DNA from: an uncultured Spirochaetia bacterium
Lineage (GTDB): Bacteria > Spirochaetota > Brachyspiria > Brachyspirales > Brachyspiraceae
Direction: 5' to 3'
NCBI GenBank assembly: GCA_947040945.1
Contig: CAMRCO010000005.1
Coordinates: 1 to 49,374, forward strand
Length of the DNA: 49,374 bases
The translations under genes and the position numbers were made by a program. The notes under the pieces were generated by a model. That model saw only the letters and a list, made by a program, of their open reading frames with translations. It did no database searches and had not been told where the DNA came from. This document shows, piece by piece, positions 15,180 to 19,914 of the stretch. Each line of letters opens with the position of its first letter. Positions within the stretch are counted from its first letter, which is position 1.

Positions 15180-15293
15180 TTGACAAAACAAGAATTATTT
15201 CAATTATGGAAATCCAATAAAGAAACCTACGCTAACCAAGAGATAGGTAGTGGCACTCAATCTTTTACAAGAAAAGTTATTGAATCATCTTAA
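15180..15293 (+). pseudogene. Truncated N-terminus of a restriction-enzyme-like gene
   Basis: A TTG at 15180 with AGGAT upstream opens a 37-residue frame that begins LTKQELFQLWKSNKETYANQ and continues with an IGSGTQSF block, ending at TAA in a terminator. From memory this resembles the first 35-40 residues of large type II restriction/methylase proteins, which go on for hundreds of residues. Here only the opening survives and the neighbouring restriction operon converges on it. I read it as a gene remnant left by insertion or deletion. It could instead be a genuine small peptide; a protein search with the 37 residues would decide. Confidence 0.4.
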
Positions 15294-15294
15294 A

Positions 15295-15330
15295 ACAAAA
15301 GACTCCCTATAATTAGAGAATCTTTTGTTT
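15295..15330 (-). terminator. Terminator of the restriction-modification operon
   Basis: The inverted arms 15295-15309 and 15314-15328 pair over 15 positions (two G-T wobbles) around a 4-nt loop. A T run follows on the minus strand, directly after the stop codon of the last operon gene. On the plus strand it would also end the relic transcript. Confidence 0.8.
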
Positions 15331-15338
15331 ATGGCGTG

Positions 15339-16091
15339 TTATTTTCTAAATACAAACAAATACTCATGTGCGAGTAATAAAAAATTATACTTGATACTAT
15401 TAGTTTTCCAAAAACCAGTCGCTTTACAGTTATGCTGTTCTTTTAGTATAATTTCCTTTAATTTAAATCCTTGTATTTCAAAAATTTTCATTACATCAAA
15501 ACTCATAGGTACAACATAACCTTTTTGTCTTGTGTCGCCCATTAAAATGGCACAAAATTTATTATCTTTTAAAACTCTATAGCTTTCAGATGCTACCTTT
15601 TTCATTTCTTCTAAAAACTGTGGTACTTTACAATGGGACAAATCTTCTTCTATATCTTCACTATATGAAATTATATTAGCATAAGGTGGGTGGGTACATA
15701 TAAAATCAATGCTTTCATCAGCTATAAAATGAAGATCTCTAGCATCACCTTTATTAAAATAAACCTGTCCTGTGTTATCTCTTTCAAAGACACATTTTTC
15801 TCGGCACCTTTCTAGTGCAATTTCATTTACATCAACGCCAATAATATTACGATTAAGTAGTTTAGCTTCTACAAGAGTTGTTCCACCACCAGCAAACTGA
15901 TCTAGAACTAAATCTCCCTCGCTAGAATATCTAAGCAGTAAATTTCTTGGTATATATGGGGACCAATTTCCACGCCATTTAGCATCATGGGTAGCCCATT
16001 TACCCCTATCTGGAAAACTCCAAACGGTATTCATTTCAAGCTCAAAGTTATCGGGTTCCCATTTAGTTATTTTTTTATTTATCATAACCAT
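15339..16091 (-). CDS. DNA methyltransferase (second methylase of the RM operon)
   Basis: A 250-aa S-adenosylmethionine-dependent DNA methyltransferase. Motif I (DQFAGGGTT, 64-72) precedes motif IV (THPPY, 133-137), and the N-terminus carries the WSFPDRGKWATHDAKWRGNWSPYIP block common to N4-cytosine/N6-adenine methylases of this class. An S/T-type residue before PPY is often linked to N4-cytosine methylation, but here the residue is His, so the base cannot be assigned. It overlaps the preceding 181-aa gene by 10 bp and is the last gene of the operon, before a strong terminator. It probably protects one strand or a variant of the site cut by the operon's nuclease. Confidence 0.85.
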   Translation of the reverse strand: MVMINKKITKWEPDNFELEMNTVWSFPDRGKWATHDAKWRGNWSPYIPRNLLLRYSSEGDLVLDQFAGGGTTLVEAKLLNRNIIGVDVNEIALERCREKCVFERDNTGQVYFNKGDARDLHFIADESIDFICTHPPYANIISYSEDIEEDLSHCKVPQFLEEMKKVASESYRVLKDNKFCAILMGDTRQKGYVVPMSFDVMKIFEIQGFKLKEIILKEQHNCKATGFWKTNSIKYNFLLLAHEYLFVFRK

Positions 16092-16627
16092 TCTTCAAAA
16101 TTTTCTTTAGTTAAATTAAATTCCTTTAATAAACCATCCATAGAAAGCCATCTTCCTTGCCCTTTTGGGTAATTACAATCCTCTTGTCCCCATATCCATT
16201 TATAGGTTTTTAAGAGTATATCCACAGAAATTCCAACGGTATCAGTAAGCGAAAACTTTTTTATTACCTCATCTGGTTCTTTTCCGCAACACACATAATA
16301 TAAAGCTCGTATTAATAGTAGTGTAGTATCTGCATCATTTCCATATTTACTGTACAAATCGTCTTTAATTTCTTTATGGCTTATTAGCCACAAACTTTCA
16401 TCTGTAGGATTATAAATGAACACCATAAAATCATTACGCGATAATCTGCCATAGCTTCGTTTACCACCAGGTTTGTTAATCACTATCTTTTCCCCAGTAG
16501 TTACTTGCTCTACTTCATATAACAAATATGGAATAGCATTTAATTCATCTCGAAATGTATCTTGTTTTTGGTTATCAATTTGGAGTGGCACAAGGTTTAC
16601 TTTATATTTAAATGTTTTATTAACCAT
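16082..16627 (-). CDS. Unknown protein in the restriction-modification operon
   Basis: A 181-aa soluble protein that I do not recognise. It shows no signal peptide, membrane segment, nuclease motif or methylase motif. Noticeable features are a basic patch NKPGGKRSYGRLSRNDF (about residues 51-67), YYVCCGK near 109-115, and a C-terminal half rich in Trp and acidic residues. Position is the main clue: it lies 11 bp after the putative nuclease gene and overlaps the second methylase by 10 bp, so it is almost certainly part of the system. It could be a specificity or second restriction subunit, as in two-subunit enzymes, or an accessory factor. That is inference. Confidence 0.7.
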   Translation of the reverse strand: MVNKTFKYKVNLVPLQIDNQKQDTFRDELNAIPYLLYEVEQVTTGEKIVINKPGGKRSYGRLSRNDFMVFIYNPTDESLWLISHKEIKDDLYSKYGNDADTTLLLIRALYYVCCGKEPDEVIKKFSLTDTVGISVDILLKTYKWIWGQEDCNYPKGQGRWLSMDGLLKEFNLTKENFEEWL

Positions 16628-16638
16628 GTAGTCCCCCT

Positions 16639-17163
16639 TTATATTATTGGCATAGGTAAACCTAATTTTATTAATGGTATATACTCAAAGTAGTACTGAC
16701 ATCTAACGCTAATAATATAGTCTAATACATCTTTATATTGAGATTGCTTAAACCAATCATTTAAAAGGTAAACATATTCTACTTCTATGTTGGCTTGCGA
16801 CATTAGTTTTTGGTACTGTTTCTTTTTAAAATCACAAGTTTGTAATTTTTCATCTACCGACCCTGCAACTTGTTGGTATTTACATTCAATAATGAATAGT
16901 GTGTTATTAACTATCACATATATACTATCATCTGGTAGGAGTTTTTTGGATATAATTTTTGTCCAATCAATATTTAATTCTGAAAGAAATTTATAAAACC
17001 CATGCTTTTTAAAAACTATTGCTATTTTTTCACCATTATACAATACATTATCACCTATAATAGTGTATCCTTTTTGCCCAGCTAAAAAAGTTGGTAGATC
17101 TACTTTCCCTTCAAACACTAAACCTGTTTTAGTGTTTCCGCCACCTTTTCCGTTTTGTATCAT
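16639..17163 (-). CDS. Putative type II restriction endonuclease (PD-(D/E)XK)
   Basis: A 174-aa protein with a PD-(D/E)XK nuclease signature: L-P77-D78-D79 at the start of one strand and I-I-E93-C-K95 on the next, followed by QQVAGSVDEKLQTCDFK. The N-terminus has a Gly/Asn-rich stretch running into TGLVFEGK, a pattern I associate with several restriction endonucleases. The gene stands between a Dam-type methylase (10-bp gap) and the unknown 181-aa gene (11-bp gap). It is shorter than DpnII or MboI (roughly 280 aa), and I see no similarity to them. The recognition site is unknown; the neighbouring methylase hints at GATC or a sequence containing it. Confidence 0.7.
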   Translation of the reverse strand: MIQNGKGGGNTKTGLVFEGKVDLPTFLAGQKGYTIIGDNVLYNGEKIAIVFKKHGFYKFLSELNIDWTKIISKKLLPDDSIYVIVNNTLFIIECKYQQVAGSVDEKLQTCDFKKKQYQKLMSQANIEVEYVYLLNDWFKQSQYKDVLDYIISVRCQYYFEYIPLIKLGLPMPII

Positions 17164-17173
17164 ACCAATACTC

Positions 17174-18073
17174 CTAATAATTAGCTATTAGCAACTCATT
17201 TATTTTACCTCTTGAATTGCTATTTGAATTTATCATTCTTGTTGCAGAAACTCGGTTTATAATAAAATCTTTATAAAGATTGTCAAAAAAATCATCATTT
17301 TCATCTGCGTTTTTAGGATCGGAATTACTAAGTATAACTTTTGAATTTATAGCCCTAAGCCTTGTTGCAAAATCAGCAAGTTCTATTTGCTCTTTATCTC
17401 CGAATTCAAATTTAGTATAAGAAGTAAAATTTGATGTATCTGTTAAAGGGCGATAAGGGGGATCTATATATATAAAGGTGTTTTCATCTATAAAATTTTC
17501 ACAATCAAGATAACTGCCACAATGCATAGTAACATTTTGCAAAGCCTTAGATACATTCAAAAGGTTTTCTTTATCACAAATACAAGGATTTTTATAAGAA
17601 CCCATAGGAACATTATATAATCCATTTTTATTTACACGATATAATCCATTAAAGCAAGTCTTATTCAAAAACACAAAAAGTGCCCCTTTTTCAATATTTA
17701 GGTCATTGTTTCCATTTGTTTTAAGAGAGTTAAACCTGTCTCTTTTCATATAATAATATTCTTTGCGATTATCTGAATCCATAGGGACATATTCATTTTG
17801 ATATTGTTCTAGTAGACAAATAATTTGTTGTGGTGCATTTTGAATTGATTTATAGGTATTAATTAATTCAGCATTTATATCGCTTATATAAACTTCTTTT
17901 AATTCATAATTGGAAAGTATATCGAATAAAACTGCTCCACCTCCAATAAAGGGTTCTGCATATTTGGTTATTTTTTTTCCAAGTTCTTTTGGGTAAGAAT
18001 TTCTGATATCTTCTAATAGTTGCCCTTTTCCACCCACCCATTTTATAAAAGGTTTTAATGTGTTGTTTTTCAT
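17174..18073 (-). CDS. Dam-type (alpha-class) N6-adenine DNA methyltransferase
   Basis: A 299-aa methylase of the Dam/DpnM family. It has FIKWVGGKGQL (9-19), motif I AEPFIGGGAV (39-48), the NKTCFNGLYRVNKNGLYNVP loop (137-156) typical of GATC-recognising members, and catalytic DPPY (204-207). It should methylate adenine in GATC or a closely related site. It is the first gene of a four-gene operon that also holds a PD-(D/E)XK nuclease and a second methylase, so it acts in restriction-modification and is probably not a housekeeping Dam. Order and spacing recall DpnII/MboI systems, but the nuclease differs. A strong promoter lies at 18150-18122. Confidence 0.92.
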   Translation of the reverse strand: MKNNTLKPFIKWVGGKGQLLEDIRNSYPKELGKKITKYAEPFIGGGAVLFDILSNYELKEVYISDINAELINTYKSIQNAPQQIICLLEQYQNEYVPMDSDNRKEYYYMKRDRFNSLKTNGNNDLNIEKGALFVFLNKTCFNGLYRVNKNGLYNVPMGSYKNPCICDKENLLNVSKALQNVTMHCGSYLDCENFIDENTFIYIDPPYRPLTDTSNFTSYTKFEFGDKEQIELADFATRLRAINSKVILSNSDPKNADENDDFFDNLYKDFIINRVSATRMINSNSNSRGKINELLIANY

Positions 18074-18121
18074 ATTTTCTAAGCCTTTTTTATTTATAGC
18101 AAGCTTTGAGACGCTAAGTTT

Positions 18122-18150
18122 ATTATATGATAAAATGATGACTTGGTCAA
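18122..18150 (-). promoter_or_regulatory. Promoter of the restriction-modification operon
   Basis: On the minus strand TTGACC (18150-18145), 17 bp and a perfect TATAAT (18127-18122), about 49 nt before the methylase ATG. No controller-protein box or C-protein gene is visible. Confidence 0.7.
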
Positions 18151-18924: not shown

Positions 18925-19419
18925 ATGATTAAAATAACAAGAAAAATACCCGTATCAGCAATGTCACTAAAAACTATGCTATACATTCTTATGATTATGG
19001 GTAGTTTATTTTTCTGCATTGGCATGGTGATTTCACTTATACCAATCTACAAAAAACAAATATCCACAAGTGTAAGCACTGCTGAGGTAGTCGACATAGT
19101 GAGAAACGAAAGTAAAGACAGTGATGGACGAACTCAAATAAACTATTTTCCTGTTTTTGTTTATAAGGCAAATGGAGAAAATATTCAAGTTACACATAGA
19201 TTTAGCCCAAGCCCTTATGAAATAGGTGACACTTTTGAAATTTTTTATAATCCAAAAAAACCAAATAAATATTATATTGAAGGCGAAGGCAGTGGAAACT
19301 GGATACTGGTTATGATTGGCTCAATTTTTACATTTGTTGGTGCTATATTTTTAATAGTTACTGTAAAGTTTTTTCTTTTACCATTTCTTAAAGCTAAATC
19401 TAGAGAATCATCTATTTAA
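18925..19419 (+). CDS. DUF3592 membrane protein (copy 1)
   Basis: A 164-aa protein with one membrane helix near residues 15-38 and another near 128-155, flanking a periplasmic or cytoplasmic beta domain. The domain shows the DUF3592 pattern: TAEVVDIVR, then YFPVFVYKANGE, then YEIGDTFEIFYNPKKPNKYYI. The function of the family is not known. It is followed after 30 bp by a clear paralogue. The ATG has TTGGAG upstream. Confidence 0.82.
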   Translation: MIKITRKIPVSAMSLKTMLYILMIMGSLFFCIGMVISLIPIYKKQISTSVSTAEVVDIVRNESKDSDGRTQINYFPVFVYKANGENIQVTHRFSPSPYEIGDTFEIFYNPKKPNKYYIEGEGSGNWILVMIGSIFTFVGAIFLIVTVKFFLLPFLKAKSRESSI

Positions 19420-19449
19420 TTTTTTTTATAATTAGGAGTAAAATTATAT

Positions 19450-19914
19450 ATGACAACAACAACACTTCCAGCACAAGCTCTCAATTTTCTTCCCATAATG
19501 GGGTCTATATTTTTAATGGGGTCTATATTTTTAACTGTTGGATTATTCGCATTTATTTCAATTCGCCACAGAAAAAAAGTTTGTACAAGCAAAACTACTG
19601 CTAAAGTGATAGATATAGTTAAGTCAAGAAGTAGAAGTAGAAGTCATAATATGAGTAGAGTACGCTATTATCCTGTTTTCAGTTATGATGCAAATGGAGA
19701 GGCTATTCAAGTTCAGCATAATGTTAGCCCAACGCCCTACAAAATAGGTGACAATTTCGAGATTCTTTATAATGAAGAAAAACCAGAACAATATTATATT
19801 GAAGGCAAAGCTGGTGGAAGTTGGTTATTTAATATAGTGGGAGTACTTTTCACACTAATTGGGGCTACAATGTTAACAGTCGTTACAATAATATATATTT
19901 TATCATTATATTAA
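19450..19914 (+). CDS. DUF3592 membrane protein (copy 2)
   Basis: A 154-aa paralogue of the preceding gene, with the same plan: helix, DUF3592 beta domain (TAKVIDIVK, YYPVFSYDANGE, YKIGDNFEILYNEEKPEQYYI), helix. Identity is high in the domain and low in the helices, so the duplication is not recent. An Arg/Ser-rich insert (about 58-66) replaces the DGRTQ stretch of copy 1. A terminator follows. Function unknown. Confidence 0.82.
   Translation: MTTTTLPAQALNFLPIMGSIFLMGSIFLTVGLFAFISIRHRKKVCTSKTTAKVIDIVKSRSRSRSHNMSRVRYYPVFSYDANGEAIQVQHNVSPTPYKIGDNFEILYNEEKPEQYYIEGKAGGSWLFNIVGVLFTLIGATMLTVVTIIYILSLY

Follow-up and report, generated by a model that had tools for sequence, protein, structure and literature searches.

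Restriction systems directed at GATC are among the best-studied restriction systems, and their methylases M.DpnII (DpnM) and Dam act on this palindromic site. Pneumococcus carries alternative DpnI and DpnII cassettes; since DpnI attacks G6mATC, a cell with an active GATC methylase would not be expected to carry it. The second pneumococcal methylase, DpnA, methylates single-stranded DNA (PMC3573125).

We analysed a window of 49,374 nucleotides, a complete contig from the 130-contig, 2.17-Mb draft genome of an uncultured Spirochaetia bacterium. The genes of this bacterium have close relatives in Treponema and other spirochaetes, and its family is probably that of Brachyspira. Four genes of the window show a layout that, as the earlier note had observed, recalls DpnII and MboI: a Dam-type first methylase (M1), a nuclease encoded together with two methylases in a single operon, and a predicted GATC target. 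Nevertheless, the DpnII nuclease has about 290 aa and belongs to PF04556, whereas the nuclease here has 174 aa and belongs to PDDEXK_11; the second methylase (MT2) has a permuted motif order with THPPY and is not of the DpnA type; and there is an additional gene, p181, which bears out the proposal that a fourth gene had been added to a DpnII/MboI-like layout. Three other kinds of loci come close. Clostridial operons composed of D12 methylase, DpnII, and MT2 genes (e.g., L168, L170, and L172) agree with it in the M1 and MT2 families and in their order, but DpnII replaces PDDEXK_11 and p181 occurs in only some of them. Lactobacillales plasmids carry units of the same M1 and small nuclease families (L012 and L092-L094), with nucleases of 199-214 aa that are about 31-37% identical to ours over the matched part, but these have neither a second methylase nor p181. 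Finally, the Neisseria leuS/dam/drg locus (NgoAXI, GATC) has what is left of a DpnA-like methylase and of a PDDEXK_11 gene, but both are broken there and preceded by the DpnI-like drg. Judging from these comparisons, the operon appears to be a GATC system built like DpnII, in which the nuclease and the second methylase are different ones and an uncharacterised partner is added.

The four minus-strand open reading frames, running from 18073 to 15339 between promoter and terminator hairpin, are as tightly packed as had been claimed: 10 and 11 bp separate the first three, and the MT2 start overlaps the p181 stop codon (Table 1). Both transcription signals named beforehand are present. The -35/-10 pair is well placed, about 49 nt upstream of M1, even if promoter-like matches in the region number 22 versus 25.8 expected and are thus not above chance. 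A terminator scan for GC-rich hairpins did not pick up the 17-bp hairpin. No GATC was found within the promoter region in a sequence scan, which speaks against methylation-dependent control via the promoter. As for the surroundings, a genome of the same genus contains a homologue of the flanking transpeptidase gene, and no homologue of the flanking aldolase-like gene was found in it.

Table 1. Features of the operon and of its transcription signals, in positions of the window.
Feature	Position	Strand	Size and evidence
Promoter TTGACC-N17-TATAAT	18122..18150	-	Consensus match alone, 11/12 bases
M1, D12/Dam-family adenine methylase	17174..18073	-	299 aa; PF02086, TIGR00571, 2dpm
Nuclease, PD-(D/E)XK, family PDDEXK_11	16639..17163	-	174 aa; PF20472; predicted GATC restriction enzyme
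p181, conserved partner of GATC systems	16082..16627	-	181 aa; no family match; 54 homologous loci
MT2, second amino-methyltransferase	15339..16091, or 16085 from the next in-frame ATG	-	PF01555, PDLC03376, motif order, neighbourhood
Intrinsic terminator hairpin	~15293..15330	-	17 bp, T-rich tail, -19.4 kcal/mol, z -6.4

M1 matches PF02086 at 2e-59 in Pfam and exceeds the NCBIfam cut-off of TIGR00571 (dam). Among solved structures, M.DpnII (2dpm, 1.1e-53) is by a wide margin its closest relative, with Dam next, in agreement with the initial description of a Dam-type, GATC-like methylase. MT2 is an N6/N4 amino-methyltransferase (PF01555, 1e-24) that matches the PADLOC model PDLC03376 over its full length (2.5e-149). 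Its motif I lies near residue 60 and THPPY near residue 130, the order reported in the earlier note, whereas in proteins of the DpnA type ADPPY comes first and motif I lies close to the C-terminus; the best PADLOC model for DpnA is also a different one, PDLC03371, which places MT2 outside the DpnA type. MT2 is present in 42 of 391 clostridial genomes, and 28 of the 30 clostridial loci examined, with 1.5-kb flanks, adjoin D12, DpnII, DpnA, DpnI, PDDEXK_11, or p181 genes, the commonest order being D12-DpnII-MT2. By its neighbourhood, MT2 is the probable counterpart of DpnA and appears to fill its slot. In L053, L058, L059, L064, and L086, the gene directly upstream of p181 encodes an extended MT2 of 470-555 aa, the second half of which resembles a degenerate methylase copy. 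Three other loci (L193, L195, and L196) have three methylases each (MT2, D12, and DpnA), and no nuclease was recognised in them within 1.5 kb of MT2.

The 174-aa nuclease passes the Pfam cut-off of PF20472 (PDDEXK_11) only, with 34.5 bits versus a cut-off of 23.7, and falls outside the DpnII family PF04556; as a control, the DpnII of L013 matches PF04556 at 3e-110 and the PADLOC REase_II model at 5e-100. The protein is hence both shorter than and unlike DpnII, as had been suspected, and the proposed PD-(D/E)XK residues P77-D78 and E93-C-K95 are in place: E18, P77, D78, E93, and K95 are invariant in 13 homologues, as is the block GSVDEKLQTCDFK, and C94 is variable. The AlphaFold model (pLDDT 81.6, the first 19 residues being unreliable) matches the restriction enzymes BstEII, MunI, and BsoBI along with other PD-(D/E)XK nucleases in a fold search, with modest scores (best E 1.9e-3) that are consistent in kind. 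We found no restriction assignment for this small nuclease in the libraries searched and no paper on PDDEXK_11 in restriction systems, and it may already be predicted in REBASE.

The nuclease is a single-copy gene in the host genome, located in the operon, and its relatives keep constant company. Across 296 surveyed genomes of the phylum, full-length homologues occur in four other genomes, and all four adjoin a Dam-type or DpnA-type methylase: the gene order is D12-PDK-DpnII-p181-MT2 in L013, another spirochaete, D12-PDK-DpnA in L014, and DpnA-PDK in L015 and L016, where PDK stands for the small nuclease. All seven homologues on viral contigs likewise adjoin D12 and/or DpnA genes. Two-gene units made up of D12 and the nuclease alone are found on Lactobacillales plasmids (L012, L092, and L093; in L094 an IS30 element lies between the two genes) and are the strongest reason to name the nuclease as the restriction enzyme. 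Relatives of the nuclease are found in the DpnII slot, between M1 and the later genes, or beside DpnII itself. Since both are present in L013 and L027-L030, PDDEXK_11 and DpnII are not simple substitutes. In Clostridia, the small nuclease is rarer than MT2, with 2 of 391 genomes.

The same arrangement was sought in other genomes and found: L051 and L065, both Omnitrophota, contain exactly the four families of the operon, with the order of MT2 and p181 swapped, and L013 has the set plus DpnII. Homologues of all four proteins thus occur together, in conserved arrangements and in distant phyla, which makes the operon more than a chance assembly. The suggestion that the combination may be undescribed therefore stands only in part. 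The four-gene set recurs, and PADLOC-DB has both a family matching MT2 and D12 families; on the other hand, the libraries searched have no entry for p181, and we found no paper on the combination, nor one on a fourth gene in DpnII-like operons.

The protein p181 gave no match in Pfam, NCBIfam, or PADLOC, no significant match in PHROGs, and no sequence match in the PDB. An alignment of 38 p181 sequences shows an invariant YKWIWGQED-NYP block. Its structure model is confident (pLDDT 88.8, pTM 0.86), but a fold search of the PDB with this model gave no match, and in BFVD it retrieved one phage protein, gp155 of Streptomyces phage BillNye (prob 1.00, TM 0.54). The gp155 gene (L096:3222-3818) lies as an orphan within a tRNA-rich region and offers no clue to the function of p181. 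Two distant similarities were considered and rejected. Sub-threshold NucS Pfam matches are seen in 15 of the 38 members, but hhalign gave 1.8% probability for p181 as a NucS N-terminal domain versus 1.6% for an unrelated PDK alignment, and a weak PDB profile match to Chlorella virus DNA ligase (E 0.008, about 67 residues) received no support from the fold search.

Among about 85,000 species genomes scanned, we found 55 loci, in 54 of which the p181 gene was recognised, spanning spirochaetes, Clostridia, Bacteroidales, Omnitrophota, and archaea; Treponema saccharophilum DSM 2985 (L047) is one of the organisms with p181. The search was seeded with spirochaete sequences, and the counts are of loci, not of independent events, with close relatives included (e.g., four Methanoperedens loci). 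A p181 sequence search of plasmids, phages, and IMG/VR gave no match; distant p181 genes on the viral contigs L029 and L030 were reached via the nuclease only. Among well-covered loci, i.e., those with at least 2.5 kb upstream and at least 1.5 kb downstream of p181, 33 of 34 have a GATC-type gene within 3 kb, as labelled with gene-family models built from the same loci. The partners vary: DpnII occurs with MT2 or DpnA, PDDEXK_11 with either DpnA or the D12-MT2 pair, and a MutH-like nuclease (PF02976, 1e-11) with DpnA in L074. Most p181 loci are without the PDDEXK_11 nuclease, and about two thirds of the well-covered ones have a DpnII, PDDEXK_11, or MutH-like nuclease. The common denominator of these partners would be the GATC site rather than a particular protein family. 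In one DpnA-p181-PDDEXK_11 operon (L060), a 132-aa open reading frame lies between the DpnA gene (4620) and the p181 gene (5971); a stretch of it recalls ADP-ribosyltransferases, and it has no Pfam match.

We consider, with good confidence, that the operon encodes a DpnII-like type II restriction-modification system aimed at GATC, with p181 most likely as an accessory. The assignment to type II follows the adjoining of methyltransferase genes and a nuclease gene with intact motifs. The data themselves give the gene content, the families, the catalytic residues, the predicted fold of the nuclease, and the conserved association; from these we infer the GATC specificity, cleavage, methylation, and oligomeric state, as well as each step of the role of p181, and the system would work as follows. 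A single promoter would transcribe all four genes; M1, being of the Dam/DpnM type, would methylate adenine in GATC of the double-stranded host DNA; the PDDEXK_11 enzyme, probably a homodimer, would cut unmethylated GATC in incoming DNA; MT2 may protect GATC when the DNA has another form or methylation state; and p181 may assist the methylases at GATC. That p181 is indeed an accessory working with the methylases at GATC, and not a subunit of the 174-aa nuclease, is a proposal to which we give about even weight. Since p181 is absent from many such systems, it is dispensable. In a minority of loci, it is the sole recognised partner of a methylase, which would also fit p181 being a nuclease itself. 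It is rather unlikely, in our view, that p181 is the first of a new-fold nuclease family recognising GATC, in which case the operon would contain two unrelated GATC endonucleases.

These assignments matter because a small family of unknown fold, unnamed in the libraries searched, accompanies some of the most thoroughly studied restriction systems: should p181 act at GATC, it would be a new nuclease or else a general helper missing from the DpnII paradigm. The PDDEXK_11 enzyme, for its part, would be a further, very small GATC-cutting family beside DpnII, Sau3AI/MutH, and DpnI.

The possible nuclease role of p181 leads to the best of the other readings, in which the operon would consist of two complete GATC modules, D12 with PDDEXK_11, and MT2 with p181 as a new-fold restriction endonuclease. 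The halves do occur alone, since besides the plasmid D12-PDDEXK_11 units there are loci in which only D12 and p181 (L035, L037, L039, and L071) or MT2 and p181 (L059 and L086) are recognised. A two-gene unit in a genome of the host's family (L165:4962-6314), standing by itself between housekeeping genes, pairs a distant p181 with a DpnA-type methylase, and none of these seven loci has a recognised non-methylase protein besides p181. Nevertheless, the large share of well-covered p181 loci that already have a recognised nuclease argues against this reading, MT2 is found much more often in the absence of p181, next to DpnII, and the loci with p181 only may have a nuclease gene elsewhere in the genome. 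The lack of a recognisable nuclease motif in p181 also counts against it, but is not decisive, given that the fold has no match in the PDB. Altogether, we regard two modules as a possible but doubtful arrangement and prefer the single system with p181 as accessory.

That single system might have a target other than GATC, given that not all methylases of the D12 class recognise this site. However, M1 is closest to DpnM and Dam, and the DpnII, DpnA, DpnI, and MutH-like neighbours found in relatives belong to families known for GATC enzymes, making another target improbable. In three lineages, moreover, a DpnI-type gene (DpnI REPLACEMENTS) abuts broken pieces of such systems, which supports one target for all parts: in Neisseria gonorrhoeae (L011), the DpnI-like drg is followed by a broken DpnA-like methylase and a broken PDDEXK_11 gene; in L088, the DpnI gene abuts a broken p181; and in a clostridial locus (L184:494-2400), it is followed by a short DpnD-like open reading frame, seen by eye only, and by an MT2 lacking about 30 N-terminal residues, which looks like a DpnI cassette having replaced the front of a D12-DpnII-MT2 system. 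Judged by analogy, this placement of DpnI beside remnants resembles the alternative cassettes of pneumococcus. For the gonococcal locus, a DpnIIB-like gene has been reported after drg (PMC4269198), and strains with dam instead of drg at this position methylate GATC (PMC6789123). The gonococcal sequence (NZ_CP119140.1) is filed in PLSDB as a plasmid but, at 2.17 Mb, is chromosome-like in size and gene content.

The system could also be decayed or inactive and retained for its methylases. GATC depletion was considered as a sign of activity and rejected: GATC is under-represented in the host, at 0.47 of expectation, but it is about equally scarce, at 0.35-0.45, in relatives where no PDDEXK_11 gene was found, so that this scarcity is uninformative. 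Its not being specific to genomes with the system leaves some room for decay, but the four intact frames with their conserved catalytic motifs, the tight spacing of the genes, and the undamaged transcription signals make an inactive system quite improbable. The weakest reading, which the earlier note had raised as an alternative, is one in which the site would be asymmetric, each strand would have its own methylase, and the 174-aa and 181-aa proteins would together form a heterodimeric nuclease. A pair of methylases accompanied by two small proteins that are not methylases fits this pattern, and the nuclease and p181 are sometimes adjacent (L029, L030, L052, L061, and L191). However, the nuclease can stand beside a single Dam-type methylase without p181, and p181 is mostly found without the nuclease and also with unrelated nucleases, so that neither is an obligate half of a shared enzyme. 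M1, moreover, resembles DpnM, which like Dam acts on a palindromic site, and all of this leaves the reading very improbable.

Beyond the operon, on the plus strand at 18925-19914, two tandem paralogous genes for small membrane proteins with DUF3592 domains lie downstream of an L,D-transpeptidase-like gene.
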